From: Undaria pinnatifida | Lineage: Eukaryota > Sar > Phaeophyceae > Laminariales > Alariaceae | Length of the DNA: 64,000 nt | Assembly (NCBI GenBank): GCA_012845835.1 | Contig: JABAKD010000010.1 | Span: 12,361,973 to 12,425,972, forward strand | Reading direction: 5' to 3' | Shown: in pieces, positions 5,881 to 57,400 of the stretch | Numbering within the stretch: the first letter of the stretch is position 1 | How the letters are laid out: each line of letters begins with the position of its first letter | Position numbers and translations under genes: made by a program | Notes under the pieces: model-generated | The model's input: the letters and a program-made list of their open reading frames with translations, nothing else | Database searches by the model: none | What the model was told of the DNA's origin: nothing

Positions 5881-6699
5881 GTCCGTCAACGCTGTTCGTC
5901 AAAGAGCAAGATTGCCGCCAACGGACAAATTCGGTGATAAACGTGGTCGAAACGGTTTGACATATTCCTCAAGGCATGGATTGCACCGCACATACAACGG
6001 CCCGACACCCATCATAGATCGTAGCGGAAATTCTACCACAGCCCACAAAGTTTTTCGAGCGGAAAAGGGACGCGAACGCCGCGGAAGTGAGCACGGCGTG
6101 CTCCAAAAGAGGCGGGCGGCACCATCTCAAGGCGGCACCATGGCACCTTCCCTGGCTTGATACTTTTCGATGGATATATTAAGGTGTTGTGCGAGATACC
6201 ATATGAATTTTGGTGGGATTAAAACCTATGAAACCCACCAACGAATGTCACACGCAAGACCAACCCAACCCAGGAAAAGTTAGGTTAGAAACGCCATTTC
6301 GGCGCTTGTTTCCCCATAGCCCTACCTATTTTGTCTTGGGTTGGGTTGGCGTTGGGGTACGGTGTTTGTGGATTTCTTATGTTTCCCTGCCTAACCAAAT
6401 TTGGCATCTCGCAAACACTTCTAACCCATTTTCGTCTCACTTGCTTGGGCAGTAACACTCTGAATAATGTGCGATCGACTTGTCCCCGACTTGTTAGCAA
6501 TCGATGAGTAAGGGTCAGGGTTAATGTTAATGTTGGTAGAGCTCTGTTGTACGCACGACGCGTCCCAGACATGTTGGCAGTGGATGGCTTTGTTAAGAGC
6601 TTTCGGGTGTTCTGCTCTCGCCGGGCGGTGGCAGAGTTATAATGTGCACGCAGCGTGCTTCTGGTTCAAGAAATGAGTGAGATCGCTCATCCCCATTTG

Positions 6700-27800: not shown

Positions 27801-30800
27801 CACCTGATAGCGCTCACCCTCCTGTTTTTGTGTTTGTGGGGAGTCGCGTGCGTTTTTGGTTGGCTCTCGATTCGACGAATGGCCTCATTTAGTTGCCGGA
27901 TATACGAATGAGGTACGTAATGAACAACAAAACGCATTGCCATCGACGTCGCCGTACCAACCTGCCCACCCATCGACCCATTGACCCACCTACCCACCCA
28001 CCCACCCAGCTAACCACCCACCTACCCACCCATCCACTCGCCCAATCGCCAACCCATCCACGCTCTTGCCGGCCATCAATGTGCTGTGCCACTGCAGAGA
28101 TACTTCCGATATCGTTTCCAAGAAGACTCGTGTTCGTCGGTCGTCGGCCGTCGGGGCTCTGGCGGTAGCGCGTACCACTGTACCACTCCGTCGGGAAAAC
28201 CATTTAATATTAGTATTGTTATACAAACGATCCTTACATTTCCGCACAGAGCAGTGTTACGTTGTTGATTTGCCACGATGAAGGATCGACGAGCAAGCAT
28301 TTAGGAAAATTTGTGACCGTCGGCCGGGACAATGACCCGCCGGGTACACCAACCTACCCATCCACCACCCACCCACCCACCCACCCACCCACCCACCCAC
28401 CCACCCACCCACCCTCCTGCTCCTGTCGTGAAAGGATTTTCATTCCATCTATGACACACCGTCGGTCCGAGACGACGAGACAGGGGGATGGAAGGAGTTC
28501 CTACGGGCGGCGGTGTTGTTCCTTGTGCTGTCTCCCAACGGCAACCACCAGCAGGATATGCTCTTCAGGGTGGCGGAGTACAAGAAGCTAGAGGAACTGC
28601 CCGCCTACAAAGTAAGGAAACCTACGGCCAGGGCGCAGGCCGAGATGGGGTCGGGATCTGGGGGGGGTGGGGGTGGGGGGGCGATGAGTGAGGGTGTCGC
28701 AAGCGTATGAAGCTTCATTTTTTTTAGTTGGTATTTTCACCGTACCCTCGCACTGTGCGAAGAACGCTTGTTCGTCCCTCCTCCAGACGAGGGCGGCGAT
28801 CTATACACAAAGGTCTCTCGTCCTCGAGCTTTTTTTTTGTGCATGATAAGAACGTCGCACAAGGAAGAGCGGGCCGATACTACAGTACATACCAGAGAGG
28901 TGTTCGGTAACGCCCTGATCCCGTTGTCCCCGCCCCCCCCTTCCCCCCGGACGGGTTTTCAACTATCACAGGCTTTGATCAAGTTGTTCACCACGCCCGA
29001 GATCATCGGGTACCCCGTGGAGAAGCAAGAGGAGCTTGAGGCCGATGCTTGCCTGGCCTTCGGCGGGCCGGAAATGTTGACAAAGTGAGTATTGGTACTT
29101 GTTCTGGTAGCTGACCTTTCAGCCCCCCCTCAGCCTCCGCCCCCCCCCCCCTTTCCTCCATCGCTTCTCCCCCGCCCCATCCCCCCCCCGCGCCCTCCCA
29201 CTTTTAAGAGTACGGTGGATTTCGATTGAAAACACGTCATTTTGACGCCGTCTGTGGCTAAGGCTTCATCCTCCGACGCAATACATGTAGCCCCCCAACC
29301 CCCTCCCCGCCCGCCCGCCCCCACCCCCCCGCGCGCGTACATGAGCACGTTCACCGATGCCCACATACCCCCGCACGTGCTTACGCCGACACATACGCAC
29401 ATATACACGCACATACGCACGCGCAATCACCCGCACCCGTACACACGCGCATGCACATGTGCATACGCGTTCACGTAAACCCACGCGGAAGTGCACATGC
29501 ACACGAACCGATGCTTGCAAATATACCCCCACGTTCACACGCGCGGACACCGACACACTCATACACCGGCACACGTAGATACACACGCGCAAACGCACGC
29601 GCGTACACATTCACAGGCACTTCCACGCGCTCGAACACCTACACACGCTTACCCTGACACGCGCATATGCCGCCACACGCACATACACAAACGTTATCCA
29701 CGCGCATGCACCGACTCACGCGCGTACACAGACGCACGCACGTACACACATGCCTACGCCGACACGCGCACGTGCACGCGCATATACACACCGACATAAA
29801 TGCACACATGCACATACACCCGCGCATTCACCCATACACGCGCATACACCGACACATACTTATAAACACGCCCATACACACAGGCATACACACAAGCATA
29901 CACCGACACGCTCACACACCCGTGGGCATATCCACGTCCATTCGCTGACACATGCGCATACACAGACACACGCACATACGCATGCACATACACACGCACA
30001 CATACACCTTCACGCGCTTACACCTGCACGCGTATACACCGACACACGCACATACGCACGCGCATAAACATGCGCATACACGCACACGTTGCCTGACACA
30101 CGTGCATGCACCGACACACGCACGCACAAGCGCATACACCGATACTGGCACATACACTCGCGCATGCACCGGCATATACACCCATGCACATGCACACGCG
30201 CCTTCACTGGAACACGCACAAACCCATGCGCATATACACACATACACCGCGCCGTGCAGGTGGAAGGCAGACCTGAAGCTCCGCATCGTGCAGCACAACA
30301 TCCGGACAGTGGCGTCGTACTACAAGCAGATCAACACCAAGAGGCTCGCCGAGTTGTTGGGCCTGGACGAGGGGCAAGCCGAGCGCAATGTGGCAGGTAC
30401 ATACATACTACTTACGTACCTCGTACCCCAGTACGGACATTCCAGGTGGTTCATTTTCCAGCCGTACGTTTATCTTGAGCAAGGTGCCGTTTATCCCCAG
30501 TGCGGGGGGGGGGCAACGATTCTTTTTTTTCATCTTTGGCATACCGCCCGAATAGTATCATGAGCTCCAATGAAAAAAACATATCACGCTAATTTACGTT
30601 ATGTCCTGACGCTGCCGTACCACACCCACATACGGTTACGTATAGTATAATAGCTACACTGTAGTTGCAAGGGGAGTCGCCGACCTATATCCTTAATGAG
30701 GACACACAAGCCGTAATGCGCGCGATCGGAGTATCACACACAGCTTGCAAGGGTGAGTTTCGACAAAATATTCGATCTCACAGCTGGAGTGTATTTTAAT

Positions 30801-31619
30801 TTTTGTTACATACTGACGAGGTGTATATAAGTCACCGCCCTCGTTAAGGTTTTTTACACAGCCCTCGCTCTCCTTTCCCTTCCTCGCTCATCCCCCGCTT
30901 CCCCCCTATTGCTTATTGATTATGTCGTAGATATGGTGAGCGACGGGTCGCTGGCGTACGCGAGAATCGACCGCCCGAGGGGCGTGATCAACTTTGCCAA
31001 GCGAAAGCCATCCGAAGAGGTATGTATGTATCATGTGCCGGTATGTGCGTGGATAAGGAACTAGAGGGTCAAGCTCTACTGGTGTACTTCGTATATATAT
31101 AGAATGCGCGGGTTCTCTCGGGCAGATGACCTCCGCAGTAAGCAACGAAAAACATGTTCCACTCCTTTCCTTTTTTTTTTGCTCCTGGGGACCACGAACG
31201 AACAAAAGTATCCAGTGTATCCCAGAAGTTGGGTGGTGGCCACAGACAGCAAAAAAAAAAGCAGGAAGAAGATAAAACAAACGTTTGTTTTTTCTGTTAG
31301 ATTTGGAAAAAATGCAATGAGCGCCCAACTGTTGGAGGTGTCTCTATTAGGGGTAAAAACGGTGTTCAGTCTCGGAAAGGATGCTTGGTCTATGGTGGTA
31401 TGACTAACGCAAGGACTAATGAGTACGCCCCCCCCCCCCCCCCCCTCCCCCGTCTCCCGGCCCGCCTCTTGTTTGTTTGGTTCGTGTTTGTTTCGTCGTC
31501 TCCTGCTTCCGGAGCAGATTCTTTCAGAATGGAACTCCGATATTGGGCAACTGCTGCAGTTGGTGGAGCGTAGCTGCCACCTTATCAACAAGGAGAATAT
31601 GTTGCACAAGATCGCGTGA
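21849..31619 (+). CDS. RPN5: 26S proteasome lid subunit Rpn5 / PSMD12
   Basis: This is the non-ATPase lid subunit Rpn5, a PCI protein of the 19S particle that contacts other lid subunits around the Rpn11 deubiquitinase. Eleven exons: 21849-21929, 24257-24469, 25112-25243, 25910-26023, 26810-26911, 27427-27492, 28435-28611, 28972-29084, 30260-30396, 30931-31019 and 31518-31619. All introns are GT-AG and all phases agree. The coding sum is 1,326 nt, giving 441 aa (human PSMD12 is 456). Colinear family motifs: LSKRRGQ and [15 protein letters not shown] in the N-terminal half, [36 protein letters not shown], then the PCI part [23 protein letters not shown] and GVINF, ending [11 protein letters not shown]. 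The start ([15 protein letters not shown]) is the first ATG of exon 1. Intron 1 is 2.3 kb. Introns 4 and 8 hold microsatellites, and intron 9 holds an exon-like repeat. Confidence 0.96.
22377..22422 (+). repeat. Short repeat shared with a TUP1 intron
   Basis: ACTCACGGCTGACGTCCTT followed by AAATATTTTTTTATAAAAT. It is matched at 55,466-55,511 (ACTCACGGCCGACGTCCTT, then AAATATTTTTATAAAAT). It probably marks the end of a small dispersed element in RPN5 intron 1. Similarity upstream of the block is weak. Confidence 0.5.
25640..25905 (+). repeat. AT-rich (GATTTGTAT)n tract in RPN5 intron 3
   Basis: Degenerate TATGATTTG/TTTGTATGA units run almost to the exon 4 acceptor. The tract therefore supplies the T-rich sequence before the 3' splice site. 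Confidence 0.8.
26040..26345 (+). repeat. (GGGTA)n / (GGTAT)n microsatellite in RPN5 intron 4
   Basis: Pentameric GGGTA and later GGTAT units with interruptions. A similar, more regular GGGTA array lies in a TUP1 intron at 55,980-56,112. The pentamer is neither the TTAGGG nor the TTTAGGG telomere unit. Confidence 0.85.
26678..26762 (+). repeat. Dispersed ~100-bp repeat, copy 1 (diverged)
   Basis: GGATGCGAGGGTCAATGGTCAT followed by GACT, then ACTTGAGTGCCCCC. This corresponds to 33,301-33,413 and 53,456-53,563. It lies in RPN5 intron 4 and is the most diverged copy. Confidence 0.5.
29340..30245 (+). repeat. ~900-bp (ACACGC/ACATAC)n microsatellite in RPN5 intron 8
   Basis: A long alternating purine-pyrimidine array of CACACG, CATACA and CACGCG words that ends just before the exon 9 acceptor. 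Overlapping open frames on both strands (up to 203 codons, rich in His/Thr or Val/Cys) are by-products of the repeat. Such alternating sequence could adopt Z-DNA; that is inference. Confidence 0.9.
30651..30804 (+). repeat. Exon-like dispersed repeat, copy 1, in RPN5 intron 9
   Basis: A ~150-bp sequence with an open frame reading [15 protein letters not shown], then [14 protein letters not shown]. It is bounded by a possible acceptor (CACTGTAG, exon from 30,665) and a possible donor (AAGG|GTGAGT, exon to 30,752). Inverted copies lie at 34,703-34,858 and, partly, at 35,671-35,765. An 88-nt inclusion would shift the RPN5 frame. Confidence 0.6.
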
Positions 31620-33845: not shown

Positions 33846-34702
33846 ACTACAGTGTAGTACATGGCGTGAGATGTGTCCTCGCCCGAGATACGTACCGGTC
33901 AGTGTGACATACGTGCATTTTTTCTTTGCGCTCGTTTTTGAGCGGAATCGCGTGGTCCTCCATACTTTATACCTGGTAAAAGCGACGATTTGCGTCGATC
34001 GACGTCTGTATTATATCGCTTCTTTAAACAGCATTCATTTACTGTTAATTTTGCCCTCCGACAATGTAGTTTGCCTGTATGTCAGACTTACACAGCGATG
34101 AGTTGTTGTACTACACGCCCTCTCTGCCAGATGCTACTCGGACGACTACAAGGTACGATGGTATGATATAATACGTCTGGTTATACTATTAATACTGTTT
34201 TTTACTGCAGATCTCGTTCACCTTCTAATAATCTATACGCATTGGGCGAGACCGTGTTTGGCCCTCCTTCTTCTCTTTTTTTCTTCCTAAGATGATAGCT
34301 CCACACGTAGGATACACCAGATCCCCATTTAATGATCCGAATAGTTATAAATATTTATCAATGTCAGGTACAATTTCCTCATCTACATAGAGTCTAGTCT
34401 ATATGTATCGTATACCGCCGTGATATTTAGTAACCGGCACGATCTAGATGTCTGGGGGGGTTGTCTAAATACTCAAAATCCCCTTGGGGGTTCAGTTTCT
34501 CTTTCGACCATTCATTCCTCAAACGGCTCTCCTTCCTTCGTCGAAAGACTTGGACCGGTATTTCGTATGGGTTACAGGGGTAGGGTTAGACTATAGTCTA
34601 GAGTTAGGGTTAGTTAACATGGTTGAAAAGGACAATAATTTTGTCAGACACCTCACGTGGGGCCATCTCTCAACGCTCGATGCTCGTACTCGTATATTAT
34701 AA

Positions 34703-34858
34703 AAATTAAAATACACTCCACCAGCGGTGAGATCGGATATTTTGTCGAAACCCATCTTTGCAAGCTGTGTGTGATACTCCGATCGCGCGCATTACGGGTT
34801 GTGTGTCCTCATTAAGGATATAGGTCGGCGACTCCCCTTGCAAATACAGTGTAGCTAT
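34703..34858 (-). repeat. Exon-like dispersed repeat, copy 2
   Basis: An inverted copy of 30,651-30,804 with the same frame open ([15 protein letters not shown], then [14 protein letters not shown]). One Ala-to-Pro change is seen in the shared part. The donor-like GGGTGAG of copy 1 is changed here. Confidence 0.65.
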
Positions 34859-35290: not shown

Positions 35291-35364
35291 GGCTCTAAAA
35301 CGATAATGAGGTGATATCCAGCGCGTGGAAGTGTTTATTATTCTGGCGGATTTCGATATTATCA

Positions 35365-35584
35365 GGTGAGGCGTTTGAGTAAGAGGTGAGGCGTTTGAGT
35401 AAGAGGTGGGGCGTTTGAGTAAGAGGTGAGGCGTTTGAGTAAGAGGTGAGGCGTTTGAGTAAGAGGTGAGGCGTTTGAGTAAGAGGTGAGGCGTTTGAGT
35501 AAGAGGTGAGGCGTTTGAGTAAGAGGTGAGGCGTTTGAGTAAGAGGTGAGGTGTTTGAGTAAGAGGTGAGGCGTTTGAGTAAGA
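35365..35584 (+). repeat. 20-bp minisatellite, about 11 copies
   Basis: The unit GTGAGGCGTTTGAGTAAGAG is repeated head to tail with rare single-base variants. It is flanked on the right by an A run and a G-rich tract. Confidence 0.95.
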
Positions 35585-35670
35585 GAGAGCGAGGAAAAAA
35601 AAAAAAAAAAAAAATGGGGGGTGGGGGGGTGGGGGGGAGGGTTCTCAAGAGGTTTAGGTCACATATATAT

Positions 35671-42451: not shown

Positions 42452-45400
42452 CTACCGCCGCTTCCACCCAGCGGCGTTACCATTACCGCTACCGCCGCTC
42501 CTGCCGCCGCCGCCATTGCTGCCGTCGGCGTCGCCTGGGAGTATGTCGGAGTACTTCCAGACGCAGACGAGGTTGTCCCCGCTTCCCGTGGCGAACATGC
42601 CGCGGGTCGGAGAAACCGAAACCCCGATGACGGAGTTCTTGAAGCCGGTGACCGTCGCGACCTGGGTGTGTTCCGTGGTTTTGCGCGTGGATGCATGAGA
42701 GAATAAGTGATTAACGCGACGACATAGGGCTATACCCAACCACATGTGCTGAGGCTCGTCCTTGCACGAGCCTCATAACCCAGCTACCCGACGACGACGC
42801 CAACACTGCCCTTCATCCGGTGAACACCCATGGTCTATGTGTATACATACGTATACTTGTCATTTTTGCCTCTGTTTTCAGAATATGTCTTTTCGTACGC
42901 ACACTTTATATCCGAAACGCCAAAGGGGGTGGACCACAAGTCGGATCTTGTGGTCATTGTCGTCGAGGTTTGGGCGCGATCTGTGCAGTGTGTTCCGCGT
43001 GGCAAAAGTTGTCAGTCGGGCTGGGCACTGGCTCAGCATGTACTGGCAGTAGTAATCTACTGCCAGTATTGATCTACTGATTGGCCCGGTCAGCATATTC
43101 GCCAGTAGTTTATATTTGACGTATGTCCAATAAACACGCCATGTTATAGTACGGAAACCCACCCAATGCTGGCGAATGAGTTACAGTACTTCTCCGAGCT
43201 CTTACTCCCCTCTCTCCCTCTCTGGGTGTCGTTATCCTTTTTTTATAGACTTTCGTGTATTTTTGTTGTTGATGCAGATATCTGGTACCAGGTATATGAT
43301 ACAGAATTGCGGTCTATCATTTAGCTGCTCGTCTATACTGCTATGTACCATGGTAGTCCTTTTGTTTTCTTCACTTCCGGTTACATGTACGAATAGCGTT
43401 CTTTCGTTGTTTCTTTTGTTTTCTTACCTGTTTCCGTATTTTTTTGGGCTGTGCTTTCCTGTATTTTGTTTGCTGGTGAGAGCCTACTACCCTGTGCCCC
43501 AAGGGTAGGAGCGGCGGAATGAATGTAAATATTAAATATTAAATACGGTACGTCAGCGATTTATAATGCACTTGCGCGAACACCAACACCACGAAGAACG
43601 TCACATCATCGCCACAATGTACTTTTCTTGGATCTTTCTTGATTTTTTCTGCAGTGTACATGACCGCAACCACCCCCGGCCAGTACAGTTTTAAGCCCCG
43701 ATTGTGATGGGAAACGAAGCGAAAAAGCGTATTTTGGGGGCTTCTGGCGGCGCCTCCAGCGGCCCCCCTTCACGAGCCGGGGGGTGCTTTTAGCCCTTCG
43801 CTCGGTGTTACTCGCTTCGCTCGGTGTTACTCGCTTCGCTCGGTGTTACTCGCTTCGCTCGGTGTTACTCGCTTCGCTCGGTGTTACTCGCTTCGCTCGG
43901 TGTTACTCGCTTCGCTCGGTGTTACTCGCTTCGCTCGGTGTTACTCGCTTCGCTCGGTGTTACTCGCTTCGCTCGGTGTTACTCGCTTCGCTCGGTGTTA
44001 CTCGCTTCGCTCGGTGTTACTCGCTTCGCTCGGTGTTACTCGCTTCGCTCGGTGTTACTCGCTTCGCTCGGTGTTACTCGCTTCGCTCGGTGTTACTCGC
44101 TTCGCTCGGTGTTACTCGCTTCGCTCGGTGTTACTCGCTTCGCTCGGTGTTACTCGCTTCGCTCGGTGTTACTCGCTTCGCTCGGCGTTACTCGCTTCGC
44201 TCGGCCAGTTTACTGCTGCAATCCGATTGATTTTTACCACAGTATAATCGATACTGACTCAGTCAGTCAGTCAGTGCCCAGCCCTAGTTTTCAGTTTTGT
44301 TACCGCGGGCACTTTCAAGACAAACCCCCGGGCTTGGGAGGCCTTATTTTACGCTCCCAAGTACGTACCAGGTATCATATGTATACGTCAAACAATACTG
44401 AAAAAACAAAAAAGACCTTCATTCCAACGAAAATGGCTACTTCCCTAGCTGAGGAGCCCCGGCACAAACTAAAGTCTCGGACACAAAGTGCTACTTCCAA
44501 GTATACACGTAACCCTACCGTAGCACGCCTTCCCCCTCCCAAGACATTCGAAACCCCCAATTATCAGGGTACTTCACGGGTCGAGTGGGTCTCACTTCTC
44601 GCGGGTCGGGAAGGGCCGGGTCACCCACCCGAACCGCGAGATTTGAAAACCTGTTGACCCAACCCGAGCCGACCCATGAGATTTCGAGCACCTCCCGAAC
44701 CGACCACCTCTCGACCAGCGACATTTTGAAAAACCCCTGACCCGCGAAAAACCCTTCAATTTACAACCTAAAACCCACCCGCTTCATGAGTTTGGCGTCC
44801 CAGATGGTGACCGACCGATCCTTGGAGCCCGAGATGATGTACTTGCCGTCCTGAGAGAAGCAGACCGACAGAACGTAGTCCGTGTGCCCCCCTGGTAACG
44901 TCTGTGCCTGCGGGGACAGCCGCCCTTCCGACCCGGGTCCCAGGTCCCACACCTGACGGAGGAGGGGGAGCAGTTGCAGTGAAAAGAAGCGTTTGGGGAG
45001 TTGCGGTGAACAGAGGGGATAGGGGATGTTGGGGGACGACGATGGCGAGGGGGGCAGGGGGTAGTGGGGGTAGAGGGGATAACGGGTTGATAGGGTCTGT
45101 GCCTGAGGGAACAGGAACAGCCGCCCTTTCGACCCGTGCCCTCGGTTCCCCAACTTGGCGAAGGGGGACGAGAGGAGGAGGAGTTGCAGTGAACACAGGG
45201 GATAGGGCATGCTTGGCGGGGGGGGGGGGGGGGGGGGGGATAAAATATTGTGGGCTTGCGAGATGGCGGGGATAGGAGTTTAAGAGATAGCGAGGGTAGG
45301 GCAGAAAATACTACGCCCACTCGCGACGAGTCATTGTCCGCAGAAATGACACCACGTTCACATTAAATTTGTTACCACTCTTAACGCAGTATTGCTCACT

Positions 45401-48400
45401 TTGATCGTCTTGTCCAGGCCTCCCGACACCAGCCTGTTCCCGTCTTGGGAGAAGGTCACGGCGTAGACTGACTCCGTGTGGCCGTCCAGGCGGTGCAGCA
45501 GCTTTTGCGTCTTCGTCGACCACACGTGCACCACCCGGTCTATAGACGCCGCCGCCACCATCTTCGTGTCCTGTCGCACAAGGTGGATTTGGGGTTTCGG
45601 GTGTTTCGGTTTTTGTGTTGGGTTCTGGTGATGGGCGTATCAACTGTTATCCTCTGGTTTGGATTTTCATTTCGGCGAACGTGCTACCTGGTACCGGTAT
45701 TTTTCAGGGCTTTCACGGGTCGTGACCCGACCCGCAGATCATCCCAGGAGGCTATCAAAACCTCGCGGGTCCATTGGGGTCGGTCAGGAGGTGTTTGGAA
45801 TCTCACGGGACGGGTCGGGTCGGGTCGGGTCGGGTCGGGCCATAAGGTCTTTCAAACCTCGCGTGTCGGGACGGGTCACCCTGACTCGACCTGACCCGTG
45901 AAAAGCCCTGGTATATTTCATGCTACTGATCCCAGCTGTGCGAGTAAATACAGTAGCATATGGTGTATCACAACGTCAACAGGGTCGCGACAAGAACGGT
46001 AATGGCTAGCCCAACTCTTTTCGTTCCGCATTGGAGAGGGGGGGACACCTACCCGGACATATAAGATAATTGGTGTAGCAGTAAAGGGTGGAAAAGGACT
46101 GGAAAACAAAAATCAGTGAAGTAAATGGTAAAAGCTTGATACAACGTCAAATCAGACCTCCATTGAGCTACCGTTACCCCCCCCTCCCCCCCCCGGCGTC
46201 GTCGTCATCGCCAACTCGGGAACCAACAACGTTCAACACATGGATATGGCACCTGTACGTACACAAATTATAGGGGCTATAATCTAAACTCTAAAATGGT
46301 CTGTGCCTGCTCTTCTCCAATCGAGTATTGATTTCGTGTCTTTTCAGCTTTCGTTCGTTCGTTCTCCTACAAGGGTAGTCTATAGCTTTTCGTGTTAGTC
46401 ATGGTATTGATCGTATTCCATTCCAGGAAGGTCGAGTCAATAGTGCAGGCGACGATTTAGTGCGTATGGGACCGAAAGCAACAGCATCAACACCAGCAAC
46501 AAAACCATCTACAACAACTACACCAACAGCAATAAACAGATACCAAAACACCGGCAACAAAAACCACCAACAACACTAACCACACACCTAGCAACAAAAT
46601 AACTGATGTCATCGCCTTCCTCTCCGTCACTCAACATCAAGACCAACAGCAACACCAACACGCAATATCACAAATACCAACACCAATAAACACCGAAAAC
46701 GACAACACCACCACCAACGTCAATACCAACAACAACAATGCCACCACCAACAACGAACACGAGTCTACACATGTGAATCACCCTCGCCCGGTAGAGCACG
46801 ACCGAAGCTATTCACCAACACCACCGCAAGGCGCCGGCACCAACTACACCACCGCAAGGCACCGGCACCAACTACACCACCGCAGGGCGCCGGCACCAAC
46901 TACACCACCAACTCAACACCAACACCAACAATACCACACCTGCGCCTGCTTGAGCAGGAATCAATAAATTTCGACACCAACACCAGTAACATCACCGACT
47001 CTACCACCAACAAACAGCATCTACACCAACACCGACAATATCGTCAGCACTGCCACTGCCATCAACAAACATGAGCATTAACACTGCCACCTACAACAAC
47101 ACCAACACCAACAAACGCAGCCGCCATTAACACCAACGACACCAATTACACTCACACCAAAACCAAAAACATGTTTATTCACTTGTACAAATCCTCTCGC
47201 CGGCTTGACGACAGCAACTCAACAACCCCACCAACCCGACACAACCACCAACACCGACAGCACCGCGCCATTCACACTACCACACTCGACTTCGAAGCCA
47301 CCCAACATCAATATCAGCATCGCCATCACTAACACCAACAACGACAACAACACCAACATACCCACTAACAAACACCGACGAACAGCATCAACTACCACCA
47401 TCACTGGCCTGCCTGAGCACGACCGCAGCATCAACAAGGCCAACGACAAAACCACGCCAAACACCAATAACACCAACATCACCAACAACATCAACTAACA
47501 ACAGCAACATCACCACCCATCCCACCATGAACAACAATCAACAAACACCAAAATCAACACAAAAAACACTACCATCATCACTCGCCCGCGTGAGCACGAC
47601 CGACGTCTCAAAGCAACAAACAACGCCACCATCAACACCGCCACAACTGACACCGACACCACCACTATCATACCGACACCGACAACACCACCAACACTCG
47701 CCGGCTTGAGAATTACCTAAGTTTCAATACCAAGGCTAATAAGATCACCAAACATGACCACCACCAACACTAAAACTACCACCAACATCACAACCACCGG
47801 CATCACCACCACCAAACGCCAACACAACAATACCGTCACCAACAACACCACCACTCGCCTGCTTGAGCACGACAGATGTCACTCCGTCCTGCGGCCCCCC
47901 AACATCTCCAAGCGAGGCCGTGCAGGCCCCCGTGACCGAGTCCCACAGCCGTATGCGCCCATCTCCACTCCCCGAAGCTATCATCGTCGATACCCAATCT
48001 AACGAGTACACTTCGCTCTGAAAGTGGTAGTGGCAGCAGGGTGTGTCCAGAAAGTTCAGACAGAGAGGATAGGAGAGAGGAGGAGATAGAAGAGGGAAAT
48101 AGAGAGGGGGAGAGATGGGTAGAGGGGGGGGGGGGAGAGGGATAGACATAAAAGAAAGACGGAGGGGGTTAAGGAGGATGACGAAGGCATACAATTCATA
48201 CTTCCATCCGCAAATAATATAAAAAGAATCAAAACCTTGGACGAACACTACCTTTTGTATCATCCCCGTGTCCCCCGCAGATCGACAACCGTAAGCGCCG
48301 CCCTAGCCACACCTGGACACAACCCCCTTCTCCACATTTCCCCTCGCCCCACCAATTAGCCACCCTCTCAGGAGCGGCCACACCAGAAAACAAAATAATT

Positions 48401-51400
48401 CATTGGCACTGCCACCCATAAACAAGAAAGTACGAGCTGGGCCAACCTAAAATCGGCCTGATCGGTGGATTGGATCGGCTATGCCCCGCTCAAATATTAA
48501 AATTGTTGACGTGAGGTTTTTACACGATGTTGATAATGTATCAACCAACAATTGGAAAGCCTGCCTTTACTATTATTTTTTTTTCGTCCGAGAGATATGA
48601 CCAATATAAAGATCCGAAAAAATACAAGTTTGTGTACGCTCCCGAGCGATGCGGTTTAATTGCTCGTGATAAAAGGCGACCCAAAATGATGTGTTGCCAT
48701 TCATGGCGCGATAATTATACGCGATACGCGTGTAGTATTCCAGTTGTACTAGAGTACCAAACATCGGCGCGGATCATAACGAACCAAAGCGCCGAGCGCG
48801 ACACTTTTACCAATTCCTCCCATTTCTACCCCTCCGTATCAACGGTGCTTTGCTATCAATACGAGAGTTTCTCGTACGAGTGCTACTGATGGTAATGATG
48901 TTATCACATTAGCTCACGTACTTGCCTGAAATCTACCCCATGGGACTTGACAATATAGGTTTAAAAGCGTCTCGATGAGATAACACGAGTACGAAATCAT
49001 AAGGGCGCGCAAGGCAGTATCAGTACATCAGCACGCAAGGGGACCGTACTATAACAGACAGTCTGTGGAATAAGTACACCATCCCGTATCACTTGCAAGC
49101 CAAATAAAACCAGGAGCATATCCACGGTACATACCTACACCCGAAATAAGAAGGAACGAGCACAAACAAAGAAAGTACGAAGAAGGCAAAACGAAGAAAA
49201 GAAATTCAAATTGACCCAAAAACGAGCATCCAGTAAGAAAGCAGACCAAGTCCCAACAGAACAAGGTTGCTGTTGACTGGTACGATCGGACCTATGCCCA
49301 GCTGGTGCACTAACAGAAGGACGACACAAAAATACCACACAAAACAATTGACAGAGAGACGAAGCGCTAACACAAAACGGGCAGTCTACAAATGGCAAGC
49401 TGGTGGGCCAAGGGTACTACCGCTTGTCGATGAAGCCATGTTCCATGTCAAGGATGTTGCGGTGCGCTTTGCATTTCGTTTTTATCTTCTCGATCATGTC
49501 CTTGGACTCGATGTCACCGCCTTTTTCAAGCGCAAGGTACGCCCGGCAAAAGTCTCGCGTGCGTCGCGCGGAGCAGCGTACGCGCTGAACCGTCAGGATT
49601 GTGTCCGTGCACATCGATGCGACTATGTTTCCGTGAAGGTGCTTCGGGGCTTCGTCGGTTATCTCCCGCCGAAAGTTCTGCTTGGACATCCCCCAGGAGT
49701 ACTCGATCCCCACCCCTGCCAGCTCCTGGTGAAATTTCGGCGAGAGCAGGAGGATGTGCCCACGGCTCTCCGCCAAGTGCTGCAGCGCTGGCCTTTCGTT
49801 CTTGAAGTCGGGCAGGTTGCCGAGAACCGTGTCGATGTTCATCTCGGGTGCAACGGTCGCCGTCTTCGACATTCCTTCGAGAAATCACCCGTGCTCCCAG
49901 AGCACCTGCTTTCCTCCCCGTGGCCTTTCCAGCATACCCCTCCCGGATTACGCCCATCTCTAACCCGGTCCCAACGCTTCCCCCCCTGCCTGCCTCCTGC
50001 GGAGGACGCTTGGTCCGCTTGTCTCGAACCTTCTTCCCCATCACGTCCGATCTGGGGGCGTCACAAAGCGTAGAACGGGGGAGGAGCGTTTGGGGGAAAT
50101 GACATGGTCTGCGTCTCGCCCGACTTGGGCTTCAAGTCCACCGTCCTCGTCGTCACCCCTTCGATGAAGTGCGTGCTCCACGCGCCGTGGTTGAGGTAAA
50201 TCTTCGCCTCCCCCGGACCCAAGCACCCCTCCACCATGATGGTATCCCGCAGCGCCCTTTGCTTGCCCCCCGAACCTCACGTTTATGTTCCCCACATGCA
50301 ACCCGTCCTCGCGGTACTTGGCATACCCTGCTGAGTGGTCGACCTCGATCATCAACTGGTGGCCTGGGTAAAGCGCTTCGAGTACGTCCATCACGTCCAC
50401 TACTTGCTCCTCGAACTGGGCGTACCCCCAATACCCTTCCTTGTTCTTACTGTGCACCAGAAAGCGAGTCCCTGGACTCTCCTTCAAGTCCGGGCGCTTC
50501 TCGAGTCTGCGAAGCTCGTTCACGGTCACGAGGTCGGCCGCCGAGAGCAGAATACCAAAAACATGCCGGACGTCCTGGCACGCGGACACCATCTCCCCCG
50601 GCCGTTCCGTCTTTTTCCTTAATCCCCTTACTCCCCTTATTTACCCGTTCGTTTCCCTCGCGTGCGAGCGCCTTGTATATCGACTCGTCCTGCCCAGTGT
50701 GATACACCGGCTTGGCACGCGGACACCATCTCCCCCGGCCGTTCCGTCTTTTTCCTTAATCCCCTCACTCCCCTTATTACCCATTCGTTTCCCTCGCGTG
50801 CGAACGCCTTGTATATCGACTCGTCCCGCCCAGTGTAATACACCGGCTTGTTCAAGCCGGTGTATCACACTGGGCAGGACGAGTCGATATACAAGGCGTT
50901 CGCACGCGAGGGAAACGAATGGGTAATAAGGGGAGTGAGGGGATTAAGGAAAAAGACGGAACGGCCGGGGGAGATGGTGTCCGCGTGCCAGGACGAGCGG
51001 CATGATTTCGGTATTCTGCTCTCGGCGGCCGACCTCGTGACCGTGAACGAGCTTCGCAGACTCGATAAGCGCCCGGACTTGAAGGAGAGTCCAGGGACTC
51101 GCTTTCTGGTGCACAGTAAGAACAAGGAAGGGTATTGGGGGTACGCCCAGTTCGAGGAGCAAGTAGTGGACGTGATGGACGTACTCGAAGCGCTTTACCC
51201 AGGCCACCAGTTGATGATCGAGGTCGACCACTCAGCAGGGTATGCCAAGTACCGCGAGGACGGGTTGCATGTGGGGAACATAAACGTGAGGTTCGGGGGG
51301 CAAGCAAAGGGCGCTGCGGGATACCATCATGGTGGAGGGGTGCTTGGGTCCGGGGGAGGCGAAGATTTACCTCAACCACGGCGCGTGGAGCACGCAGTTC

Positions 51401-54400
51401 ATCGAAGGGGTGACGACGAGGACGGTGGACTTGAAGCCCAAGTCGGGCGAGACGCAGACCATGTCATTTCCCCCAAACGCTCCTCCCCCGTTCTACGCTT
51501 TGTGACGCCCCCAGATCGGACGTGATGGGGAAGAAGGTTCGAGACAAGCGGACCAAGCGTCCTCCGCAGGAGGCAGGCAGGGGGGGAAGCGTTGGGACCG
51601 GGTTAGAGATGGGCGTAATCCGGGAGGGGTATGCTGGAAAGGCCACGGGGAGGAAAGCAGGTGCTCTGGGAGCACGGGTGATTTCTCGAAGGAATGTCGA
51701 AGACGGCGACCGTTGCACCCGAGATGAACATCGACACGGTTCTCGGCAACCTGCCCGACTTCAAGAACGAAAGGCCAGCGCTGCAGCACTTGGCGGAGAG
51801 CCGTGGGCACATCCTCCTGCTCTCGCCGAAATTTCACCAGGAGCTGGCAGGGGTGGGGATCGAGTACTCCTGGGGGATGTCCAAGCAGAACTTTCGGCGG
51901 GAGATAACCGACGAAGCCCCGAAGCACCTTCACGGAAACATAGTCGCATCGATGTGCACGGACACAATCCTGACGGTTCAGCGCGTACGCTGCTCCGCGC
52001 GACGCACGCGAGACTTTTGCCGGGCGTACCTTGCGCTTGAAAAAGGCGGTGACATCGAGTCCAAGGACATGATCGAGAAGATAAAAACGAAATGCAAAGC
52101 GCACCGCAACATCCTTGACATGGAACATGGCTTCATCGACAAGCGGTAGTACCCTTGGCCCACCAGCTTGCCATTTGTAGACTGCCCGTTTTGTGTTAGC
52201 GCTTCGTCTCTCTGTCAATTGTTTTGTGTGGTATTTTTGTGTCGTCCTTCTGTTAGTGCACCAGCTGGGCATAGGTCCGATCGTACCAGCCAACAGCAAC
52301 CTTGTTCTGTTGGGACTTGGTCTGCTTTCTTACTGGATGCTCGTTTTTGGGTCAATTTGAATTTCTTTTCTTCGTTTTGCCTTCTTCGTACTTTCTTTGT
52401 TTGTGCTCGTTTCTTCTTATTTCGGGTGTAGGTATGTACCGTGGATATGCTCCTGGTTTTATTTGGCTTGCAAGTGATACGGGATGGTGTACTTATTCCA
52501 CAGACTGTCTGTTTTAGTACGGTCCCCTTGCGTGCTGATGTACTGATACTGCCTTGCGCGCCCTTATGATTTCGTACTCGTGTTATCTCATCGAGACGCT
52601 TTTAAACCTATATTGTCAAGTCCCATGGGGTAGATTTCAGGCAAGTACGTGAGCTAATGTGATAACATCATTACCATCAGTAGCACTCGTACGAGAAACT
52701 CTCGTATTGATAGCAAAGCACCGTTGATACGGAGGGGTAGAAATGGGAGGAATTGGTAAAAGTGTCGCGCTGGGCGCTTTGGTTCGTTATGATCCGCGCC
52801 GATGTTTGGTACTCTAGTACAACTGGAATACTACACGTGTATCGCGTACAATTATCGCGCCATGAATGGCAACACATCATCTTGGGTCGCCTTTTATCAC
52901 GAGCAATTAAACCGCATCACTCGGGAGCTTAATATTAATCTACGAGGTACGGATGAGTACTCGCAGCGTCGCAGTACTACGTCCGGTAGAGGTCGTCCGC
53001 ACCCCGCTCAGAATTCGCCCGAAAAGACGGACCCGATAAGCTGCGATGCCGCGCTCAATTTTGTGAAATTCGATCTGAAAATTTCACGTCGTATTCGAAC
53101 CGCATGTGCACACAAACGGAAAGCCTGCCCTTTTTTTTTTTTTTTCAAGTTATGCCCACTTTGGTATTTTTTCGGATCTATATATTGGTCATATCTCTCG
53201 GACGAAAGAAAAAAAAAGGCAGGCTTTCCAATTGTTAGTTGATGCATCATCAACATCGTGTAAAAACCTCACGTCAAAATTCGTAATATTGAGCGGGGCA
53301 TAGCCAATCCACCGCTCTGGCCGATTTTAGGCTGGACCAGCTTGTAGGCACAAGCTGCCGATTTTCGTCTTACGAGCGGTTCGTGGCAAGATGCAGTTCA
53401 CCCTTCATGCGACTCGCTAAACACCTCACGCTTGGCGCTTGGTGCAAGCAATGTCTGCCTGGTTGGTGAAAACCCGACGTGGTCCGTACCGACATAGTAG
53501 GGATGCGACGGTCTATGGTCATAAAGACTACGGCCACGCACAAACTGAGTATACTCCCTCCCCCGCCCGTTCCTACGCCTCTTTCCCCACCCGCTCCCCC
53601 ACCAACCCTTTCAACATTGACAGTAATTTCACCCCTTACTCGGCGCAACCGACAACCCCCCCCGCTCCCCCCCCAGACGACCTCTCGCCTTCCCCGACGG
53701 CGTATTCGTCGCCAATCGATAACGCAAATGGTACATATTAATCGTAGCTGGAATGACAAACATACCTCGTGCCCCGCTAGCGTAATCGCGCCCTGCCTTC
53801 CCCCTTCCTCTCCCAACAGCAAGACCTTGGCGCTGTTCTTCTCCATCCCTGCCACGATAGAGAGCCCGTCGGGACTAAAGCACACTGCCCGGACGTAAGG
53901 GTCCGCCTCCTGGTGCCCGTCCTCGTCTTGCTGGATGTGCTGCAGGTTTTGAGATTTGCCACGTTTTCCATGTCAAAGTCGCAGTCAAGCCAAGCCCAAG
54001 CAACCCAAAGCCAAGCCACGCCAGAGCCAACCAAAAACAACGCAGGCCAAGCCACAGCCACAGCCACAGCCACGTCCATCCGTCCGTCAGTCAGGGTTCA
54101 TCCATCGGTCATTGTCATTCCGTCGGTCCGTCAGTGTCCGTTCATCAGTCCGTATCAATTCGTCAGTCCGCGTCCATCCGCCAGTCCGTGTCCATCCGGG
54201 GGTCATTATACGTTAGTTGAATATTAATAGCGCCCATCCGTCGGTCAATATCATCCAGTCCGTCCGTCCGCCCGTCCGTGCGTCGGTGGGTGGGTCCGAG
54301 AGTTGGTTCATCGTAAGAAACAGGAGTCAACAGGAGTCGCCGGTCCCCAAAAGAATCAAAGACGTCAGGGGGTGGGGGGGAAAGAAAAAGCGCCCTTTCG

Positions 54401-57400
54401 TGAGACAACAAAACGAAACAACAGGGAGATTAAGGCATACAAAGTACAGCTCAAGATCCAACACTGCCTCGTTGCGGAGGCAACGGCATTCTCCTACAAG
54501 TACACACCTTGCCCCGCACAGAACGGTCTTTTCTGGGACACTACAACGACAACAAAAAAAGCACCTCCCCCCACCCCCCCGACCCCCCCCCTCCCCGGTC
54601 CAAGACCAACCTTTTTAGGGAGACAGCACAAAAACGCCTCCCTTACCACTACTACGTCCCCTCAACCACTCTGTGAAAAACGCCCTCCCTCACCCCCTTT
54701 CCCCCCCTCTCCCCTAATTCTCCCCGATTCCTTACCTTGCGGCAGACGTACAGCTGCCGGAAAGTGCCGACGTCGAAAACCTTCACGCACGAGTGGCTCC
54801 CCGCTGCGATCTTAGTCCCGTCCGCACTGAATCTCACGCAGCACACCACGCTCTGACACACAAAAAAACAACAAAACGCGGCAAAACACGAGACAGGACG
54901 CACACGACAAACGTAGGCACACAAACAGAATACAACGCACGCACGCACGCGGACAGACATACACAACAAACAGACATATACAACCAGCAGGGCACACAAG
55001 CACGCACGCGAACAGACACACAGAGGCACAACAGAATCAGCGACAGGGAGTTTGCATAAAGTGGGTAGCGATGGCGAGGTTAAGGGTGGGGATCGAGATG
55101 GGGAGCAAAGGGTACGCACATACACGAGTGACAAGACAGGCGGGAATGCATGGCAGGGCAAAAAGGAGTTCAACTAGATATGCCTTGCTATGTTCTTGAG
55201 CTCTATAACCTCGTCTACCCTTACTCTGCTCTTCCGTTGTACTCGACCCTGCTCTGCTCTACACCATATATCAGATAATAACTCGAGACTCCCATCGAAA
55301 AAACGAGAAACGAGCACGATAATTGCCCGCTGCCGTTGCTGTTGCTGCTTTGTGCCATGTTCTTTGCGCAGTGGCCGATTCCAGGCCGAGTGCCGATCAT
55401 CGACCACGCTCGGTTGCGAAAACAATAGCAACAACGCAGCTTGCAAAGATGAGTATTGACCCGAATTCGTCGAACTCACGGCCGACGTCCTTAAAATATT
55501 TTTATAAAATAACATCCGACACTAAACTGGCGTGTACATTGTATTCCTGTACTCCGTAGGCTCGGTGATGTCGTATTATAACATCATGCTATACCACAGA
55601 CCAAAGTACCACCGGTGTGCACCATAAGAGCTCTCGTATCTGTTGGTAAAAAACTGCTGTGCGTATATACCTCTATCAGACATCTCAACAATCTTTGGTA
55701 AACGTTCTTACGGTACATACATTCCGTGTCAACTATCACGCCAGTGGGTATCTCTACAGCTCCGTGTTCCGTGTTATTTTAGTTTCATCATACGGTACGG
55801 TGGCAGGGAAGGCTAAGGCAGGGCAGGCTACGGGGGTAGTCGAGGGTAGTTGACGGGATGGCTTTATGATCGAGTAGGTTAGGGTAAGGTGGAGTAAGGC
55901 CGGCTAGGGTAGGGGACGATAGCGTCGGTTGGGTAGGAAAGGCCAGGGGCGGGCAGGGAAGGAAAGGGCAGGGTGGGGTAGCGTAGAGTAGGGTAGGGTA
56001 GGGAAGGGTAGGGTAGGGTAGGGTAGGGTAGGGTAGGGTAGGGTAGGGTAGGGTAGGGTAGGGTAGGGTAGGGTAGGGTAGGGTAGGGTAGGGGTGGGTA
56101 AGGTAGGGTAGAACAGGATACAACAAGGTGTGCATAAAATAAACTGCATGAACGAACGAAAGAGTTAACGAACCGCAAGGAGAGGTGGGTAAACTCCTGC
56201 GCTGCCGAGGGCGGCAACTCTTTCGTACACGATCGTACGTGTTTCTTGTTTCGCACAAGTATTATTTAGTATTTGCTATTATGGTACTCCTACCTAGGGT
56301 AGGTCCACCCGAAAAGTAGTAGACCATACTGACCCACCGTAATCAAATTTAGCAAGCCTTTGCGGTAGCACATGACAGGTCGGTCGGTTGCGCGTGCTCT
56401 ATACTTCGACACGAAACTCCCCACGAAATGTAGACAGATTCGTAGTACGGCAGCAGTAGATAGGAGGGCCAACATGACCGTTCAACCACAGAAATTTCGT
56501 CATTTCAAACATTCCGGGATCTCAATTATACTTGGCATCATACCTGCTAACGGGAAATTCCATACACCTTCAGTTATTTTGTTTGGACCGCCCGAAAAAA
56601 AAGGTTGCGGTGTCATGAAAAAAGGGCTGAGCTGAAAAAAGCCGACTGCAACCTACGCGAAAGAGAGGCTGTCGACTGCTGTGGCACAAGCAGCGCCTCG
56701 ACGTCATGAAACACGTTGTGCTAAACAGCTACTAACCCATTTGGAGGCCCAGGAACATAGCAACCAATTCAACAAACGTTGCGGCCGCTTCGCCTGTCTA
56801 ATTGTAGTGTCGTGGTGCGACTACGCAGCCGTACGAACTAGGTATCGGTACAGCACTATTATCAGATTTTAAATCTGCTTATCAGCGCCGACTGACTAGT
56901 GAAAGCGTTTTTCTCACGAACACAAAAATAGCGTCGGTAGTACAAACGGTGGACGTAAACATGGTGTGTTATTCATTGAAGCCTGACCTGCAATTCTGTC
57001 TCGACGCCCAAAGACCGAAACAGCAAAACTGCAACCGAATCAGAAAAAAAAATATAGATCGTTCGTTGGGTCGGTCGGTCAGTCAAGCCGAGCGACGGAC
57101 ACAGAGAAAGCAAGGAAATTCCCCCCGAATGACACCATACAACACCACATGCCATGTCATGGCATAAAATTACACGAACCGCGCCCGCACCCGCTCCTTC
57201 GCTCGACAAGTCGCTCACGTCTTGCGCAAACAAAAAAAGTGCGGAGCCCCGCCCTGATAGCCCCCACTGCTAACAAGATACCAACATCATAAAATGTGGG
57301 TGGTACGCCGACCAACACGATAAAACAACAGACGGGACAAGCTACAAGAATGCTTGCTCGCGTGCATTAGCTGTGGTGAGATATATTTCCAACCCATTCG

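Follow-up and report, generated by a model that had tools for sequence, protein, structure and literature searches.

A palindromic derivative of a short-terminal-repeat DNA transposon in an intron of the brown alga Undaria pinnatifida, with arms probably homogenised by gene conversion

The published accounts of the transposon Galileo in Drosophila mojavensis and D. willistoni describe terminal inverted repeats (TIRs) that have been lengthened by internal sequence in inverted orientation, up to part of the open reading frame (PMC3573991, PMC4168063). The longest TIRs given there for D. mojavensis measure 1,260 and 1,241 bp and share 95.2% identity (PMC3573991). Copies termed 'two recombinant TIR' carry tandem repeats and chimeric ends, for which repair, recombination or conversion is proposed as the cause, and repair from the other TIR is named by the authors as one route of TIR lengthening (PMC3573991, PMC4168063). 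Long inverted repeats are furthermore described for mammalian sex-chromosome palindromes, the arms of which are kept more than 99% alike via arm-to-arm gene conversion (PMC3723533, PMC8981503), and for Foldback-type elements such as Tetris, which are presented as DNA elements dominated by such repeats (PMC4079207). A literature search in PubMed Central on gene conversion of TIRs returned no paper that matched four of its five terms. Here we describe a 4,916-bp palindromic transposon derivative from the brown alga Undaria pinnatifida, located in a stretch of 64 kb (assembly GCA_012845835.1, contig JABAKD010000010.1, positions 12,361,973 to 12,425,972 of the forward strand) that we call the window and to which all positions without a locus name refer.

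The palindromic element spans 48431..53346 from TIR tip to TIR tip, and both of its ends are of the same kind, here called the A type, with TA at each tip. As a whole it has no strand, and neither has its centre at 50851.5, a spacer of only 2 bp (TT, 50851..50852). The high-identity parts of the two inverted arms, 48635..50714 on the plus strand and 50853..52931 on the minus strand, are 99.1% identical over 2080 alignment columns, with 18 mismatches and one gap. This alignment bears out the two arms of about 2.4 kb meeting at a 2-bp spacer that had been claimed in a preliminary description of the locus, the limits of which (48432..53343) were correct within a few bases of the actual TIR tips, and it adds three features to that picture. 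The arms are unequal, as a 138-bp segment stands twice in tandem to the left of the centre (B1, 50576..50714, and B2, 50713..50850, both plus strand, the latter adjoining the centre) and once to its right (B3, 50853..50990, minus strand). A segment of about 233 bp (52932..53163, minus strand) is retained by the right arm as well as by relatives but has been lost from the left arm. Moreover, the outermost 183–196 bp of the two arms, namely the A-type left outer end (48431..48625, plus strand) and the A-type right outer end (53164..53346, minus strand), are only about 87% identical, or 90.8% if gaps are excluded. When the 64 kb of the window were compared with themselves by blastn at E 1e-8, only one other inverted repeat longer than 60 bp emerged, a 167-bp pair at 92%, and the window being nearly free of such repeats excludes a chance origin of the palindrome.

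The element belongs to a family dispersed throughout the genome, for which a search of 511 Mb in 68 contigs gave at least 79 matches (40 of 163 candidates scored). Inverted tips are conserved among the dispersed copies (TACRAGCTGGGCC), and the element tips at 48431 and 53346 are also the points at which family copies begin, with TACGAGCTGGGCC, as seen in nine copy ends that were chosen because their match starts at base 1. In ordinary copies the TIRs extend over only 12–29 bp, after which the two ends differ (ungapped tip comparison of nine copies). A full-length form, which the preliminary description had proposed looking for as the parent, is represented by locus L013 (1739-7774), which measures 6036 bp and has TIRs at both ends. 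With the end nearer to the C terminus of the presumed transposase termed A and the opposite one B, we counted 20 A–B pairs of inward-facing ends within 12 kb, a single A–A pair, which is the window palindrome, and no B–B pair among 40 A-end and 41 B-end matches; these counts are lower bounds, with 40 of 149 A-end and 40 of 99 B-end candidates scored. All six relatives inspected extend into the N-terminal half beyond the point at which the arms are truncated. Each arm represents the A half of a full element: it begins at the A end and breaks off at arm base 2494, the cut being at the same base on both sides. Parental internal sequence is inverted at both ends of the palindrome, as in Foldback-like or extended-TIR derivatives of the Galileo kind. 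The window element is a dead, non-autonomous member of this family, which most likely consists of cut-and-paste TIR transposons.

The differences between the arms are distributed very unevenly. Of 25 listed differences, six fall at 48627-48634, where the left arm has its deletion, and were not counted, which leaves 19 (18 substitutions and one indel). The central 80% of the arm holds five of the 19, which was matched by none of 100,000 random placements, and the longest gap free of differences spans 893 bp (p 0.0004). Counted by segment, the outer edge has inter-arm substitutions at 6/158 sites, the middle (48795..50556 on the plus strand of the left arm) at 5/1762 and the part next to the centre at 7/157, and the contrast of the middle with the two edges (13/315) is significant at p 7e-8 in Fisher's test. 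The middle is not mutation-cold, because five aligned relatives differ from it by roughly 6-10%, e.g. at 172/1732 sites for L009 and 134/1738 for L013. Judged by hand from the state that most of up to five relatives show, 12 of the 19 differences are changes in the left arm and five in the right arm, while two are ambiguous.

The same pattern was found in a second palindrome. Locus L023 (39-8501) is an 8463-bp palindrome of the B–B type with arms of about 4.2 kb, which ends at TIR tips with differing flanks and belongs to a related subfamily with about 70% identity to the window arms. Its arms differ at eight positions in the first 270 bp, at one in the next 2898 bp, and then, beyond a 207-bp indel that borders the tract of identity, by 12 substitutions in 855 bp, so that 1/2898 in the middle stands against 20/1125 at the edges (p 1e-10); a 1-bp indel in the 855-bp stretch as well as four substitutions and a 15-bp gap nearer the centre lie outside this test. 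The centre of L023 was found only once (all 21 candidates scored). Its end gave 25 matches from 24 candidates, all of which were scored, and inspection by eye showed no facing pair among them apart from the two ends of L023 itself. The window palindrome and L023 differ in subfamily and in end type, and the geometry that they share argues against chance as well as against an artefact.

The best reading of the window element is that of an older inverted duplication whose arms were homogenised by inter-arm gene conversion, and neither that of a simple recent fold-back nor that of an assembly artefact. The preliminary description had left it open whether the event was recent or the arms convert each other; the clustered differences favour conversion, and a simple recent fold-back does not agree with outer ends at about 87%, which are roughly as distant from each other as unrelated family copies. 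The simplest account of the converted tract is that it stops on its outer side at the indel and on its inner side short of the centre.

As for its origin, the A half of an element was probably duplicated in inverted orientation, which gave both termini A ends, and the tandem repeat by slippage and the conversion of the arms followed later. The inversion may have occurred during repair of a break or of an excision gap. At the break, the repair strand would have changed over to the complementary one, and the short TIR common to both ends could then have been the site at which copying was resolved. Alternatively, the palindrome might have formed elsewhere and been inserted as a unit. No second copy crossing the palindrome junction was found in the assembly (all eight candidates scored), and since cut-and-paste transposition leaves no donor, this unique centre is compatible with formation in place as well as with transposition as a unit. 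Both copies of the tandem repeat and the right arm terminate at one identical base, and this points to slippage from a centre already in place as the source of the 138-bp repeat. Conversion between the arms would subsequently have overwritten the middle, sparing the parts next to the centre and beyond the large indel.

Two separate inverted copies, or a chimera with one foreign end, could also have given rise to the palindrome if its middle was homogenised by conversion afterwards. The outer ends speak for this explanation, as each of them finds better matches among other copies than in the opposite end: L016 (93.5%) and L017 (92.4%) surpass the right outer end (90.8%) in identity to the left one, and L017 (93.9%), L016 (92.3%) and L011 (91.7%) surpass the left outer end in identity to the right one. 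In a tree of 12 rows, from which L010 with its altered end was excluded despite being part of the alignment and to which L027 was added, the arms join with full support and the outer ends form a star, their union being neither backed nor rejected (p 0.21 in the approximately unbiased test). Truncation at one and the same base and a spacer of 2 bp would, however, be surprising in independent copies, and we regard this explanation as unlikely.

A recent hairpin-mediated inverted duplication without any conversion, in which the differences would simply be new mutations, agrees with the overall arm identity of 99.1% and with the unique centre. It is at odds with the strong clustering of the arm differences, with the divergence of the outer ends and with the recurrence of the pattern in L023, all of which makes it very improbable. 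An assembly or read fold-back, which had been put forward as the main alternative, is scarcely credible either: although fold-back molecules are known from long-read data, the arms differ at 19 sites, by the 138-bp repeat and by the segment of about 233 bp, the element ends at TIR tips amid unlike flanks with one gene continuing on both sides, and L023 provides a second TIR-bounded palindrome.

Several points weigh against an older, converted duplication of one element. The evidence, including the two signs by which arm-to-arm conversion is recognised here, namely identity in excess of the age of the duplication and visible tract limits, comes from one assembly. The limits between edge and middle were set after the differences had been seen; the gap tests, which are independent of these limits, gave p 0.0002 and 0.0004. 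A slight excess of divergence at the edges is also seen in the relatives, two of five having been compared with the left arm in this respect (odds ratio 0.70, with p 0.055 for L009 and p 0.09 for L013). Close to the centre, at 50557-50668, seven of eight differences are left-arm changes, one is ambiguous and none is clearly a right-arm change, an asymmetry that the conversion model does not predict. The alignment of the ends contains no clear derived change shared by the two outer ends, as of the four columns in which both depart from the majority two are gaps at the alignment end and two show letters shared by other copies. Since the ends are nearer to other copies than to each other and their grouping is undecided, the left end could derive from another copy. 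The TA at both tips may be part of the TIR or a duplication, and visual inspection of 20 bases of flanking DNA revealed no longer direct repeat, so that a target-site duplication at the palindrome is putative. Finally, the presumed transposase has no match in Pfam or NCBIfam, and a PDB sequence search at E values up to 1 returned six matches, the best at 0.0084, none of which is a transposase.

This protein is named a transposase on the ground that the TIR-bounded repeats share it as their conserved reading frame. The right arm encodes on the plus strand a fragment without its N-terminal part and with a broken frame (50839..51522, no Pfam match) as well as a C-terminal fragment (51682..52146), and the left arm carries their mirror images on the minus strand at 50044..50640, with the identical frame break, and at 49420..49884. 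The preliminary description had claimed one transposase core in both arms, cut at its 5' end at the centre and with common interruptions, and the missing N-terminal parts and matching frame breaks agree with this; the same broken frame in both arms marks the copy as dead. In its motifs the protein presumably resembles Tc1/mariner-IS630-like transposases. That group duplicates a TA target, and the TA at the tips of the window element may be either such a duplication or TIR sequence. Placement in that group is not supported, as no DDE transposase model was matched in Pfam, NCBIfam or PDB and the predicted structure was poor, with a mean predicted local distance difference test score (pLDDT) of 41. 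Among viral contigs two pattern matches were obtained, and no relative of the presumed transposase was confirmed there.

Some family copies show rearrangements of their own. L013 contains at 6112-6423 an internal inverted duplication of 313 columns at 97.8%, a smaller fold-back within the presumed transposase region, and more self-inverted stretches (83-92%) lie near family copies at L014 7469-8314, L017 4147-4567 and L028 1000-2988. In L009, a long A–B copy with ends 8011 bp apart, a large degenerate minisatellite occupies about 458-2293.

The window element sits in a 5.7-kb intron (48018..53765, minus strand, positions obtained by manual counting along the sequence) with GT–AG borders in phase 0 (GHE/SEVYSLDW). 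WD40-type exons lie on both sides on the minus strand, with Pfam WD40 matches below the curated cut-off, and from the order of its WD40 repeats we take the host gene to be TUP1-like. The exons and splice borders support the earlier claim of a truncated element folded to a palindrome within a TUP1-like intron. Potential for a hairpin in the pre-mRNA, also claimed there, follows from the sequence, as the 278-nt centre is predicted to fold into one long hairpin with −300.9 kcal/mol (z −39.8). A locus that is kept for putative hairpin-derived small RNAs against its own family would fit this predicted fold and its intronic position. Any palindrome folds likewise, though, which makes the fold uninformative on use, and the symmetry of the arms is already accounted for by conversion, so that such a function appears most improbable. 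A search of 47500-54500 against Rfam at the gathering threshold gave no match. With little confidence, we also consider a more general scenario in which failed repair after excision would, in the U. pinnatifida genome, repeatedly convert transposons with short TIRs to full A–A and B–B palindromes, guided by the TIR tips and maintained by conversion, of which those in introns of active genes would be putative sources of hairpin RNA silencing the family.

Elsewhere in the window, the 167-bp inverted pair, which is unrelated to the palindrome, lies at 30650-30813 and 34692-34858, and two regular tandem arrays were found at 43796-44204 (19-bp unit, 21.5 copies, 99% matches) and 35364-35585 (20-bp unit, 11.1 copies, 98%).

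The window palindrome and L023, which represent different subfamilies and end types, are compact natural archives of conversion between arms, with tract limits that can be placed directly relative to an indel and to the centre. They point to extended-TIR derivatives beyond Drosophila, in a brown alga, and the window element offers a putative hairpin in the intron of a conserved regulator. Compared with the systems introduced above, the window element shares with Galileo the inverted recruitment of internal sequence at the TIRs. Galileo is, however, a member of the P superfamily. The family of the window element normally has TIRs of only 12–29 bp, and in the window element and L023 the repeat reaches the centre (arms of 2.4 and 4.2 kb) and the conversion tracts can be mapped. 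Inverted, near-identical arms and conversion between them are also common to the sex-chromosome palindromes, which are far larger and carry host genes, while the unit in the window is one transposon copy. In Foldback-type elements such as Tetris long inverted repeats are a trait of the whole family, whereas the window palindrome and L023 are single derivatives of a family with short TIRs. The window element is therefore not a new kind of element; it clearly illustrates, in a natural setting, a process that is already known, and it unites TIR extension with arm-to-arm conversion in a repeat that reaches the centre.

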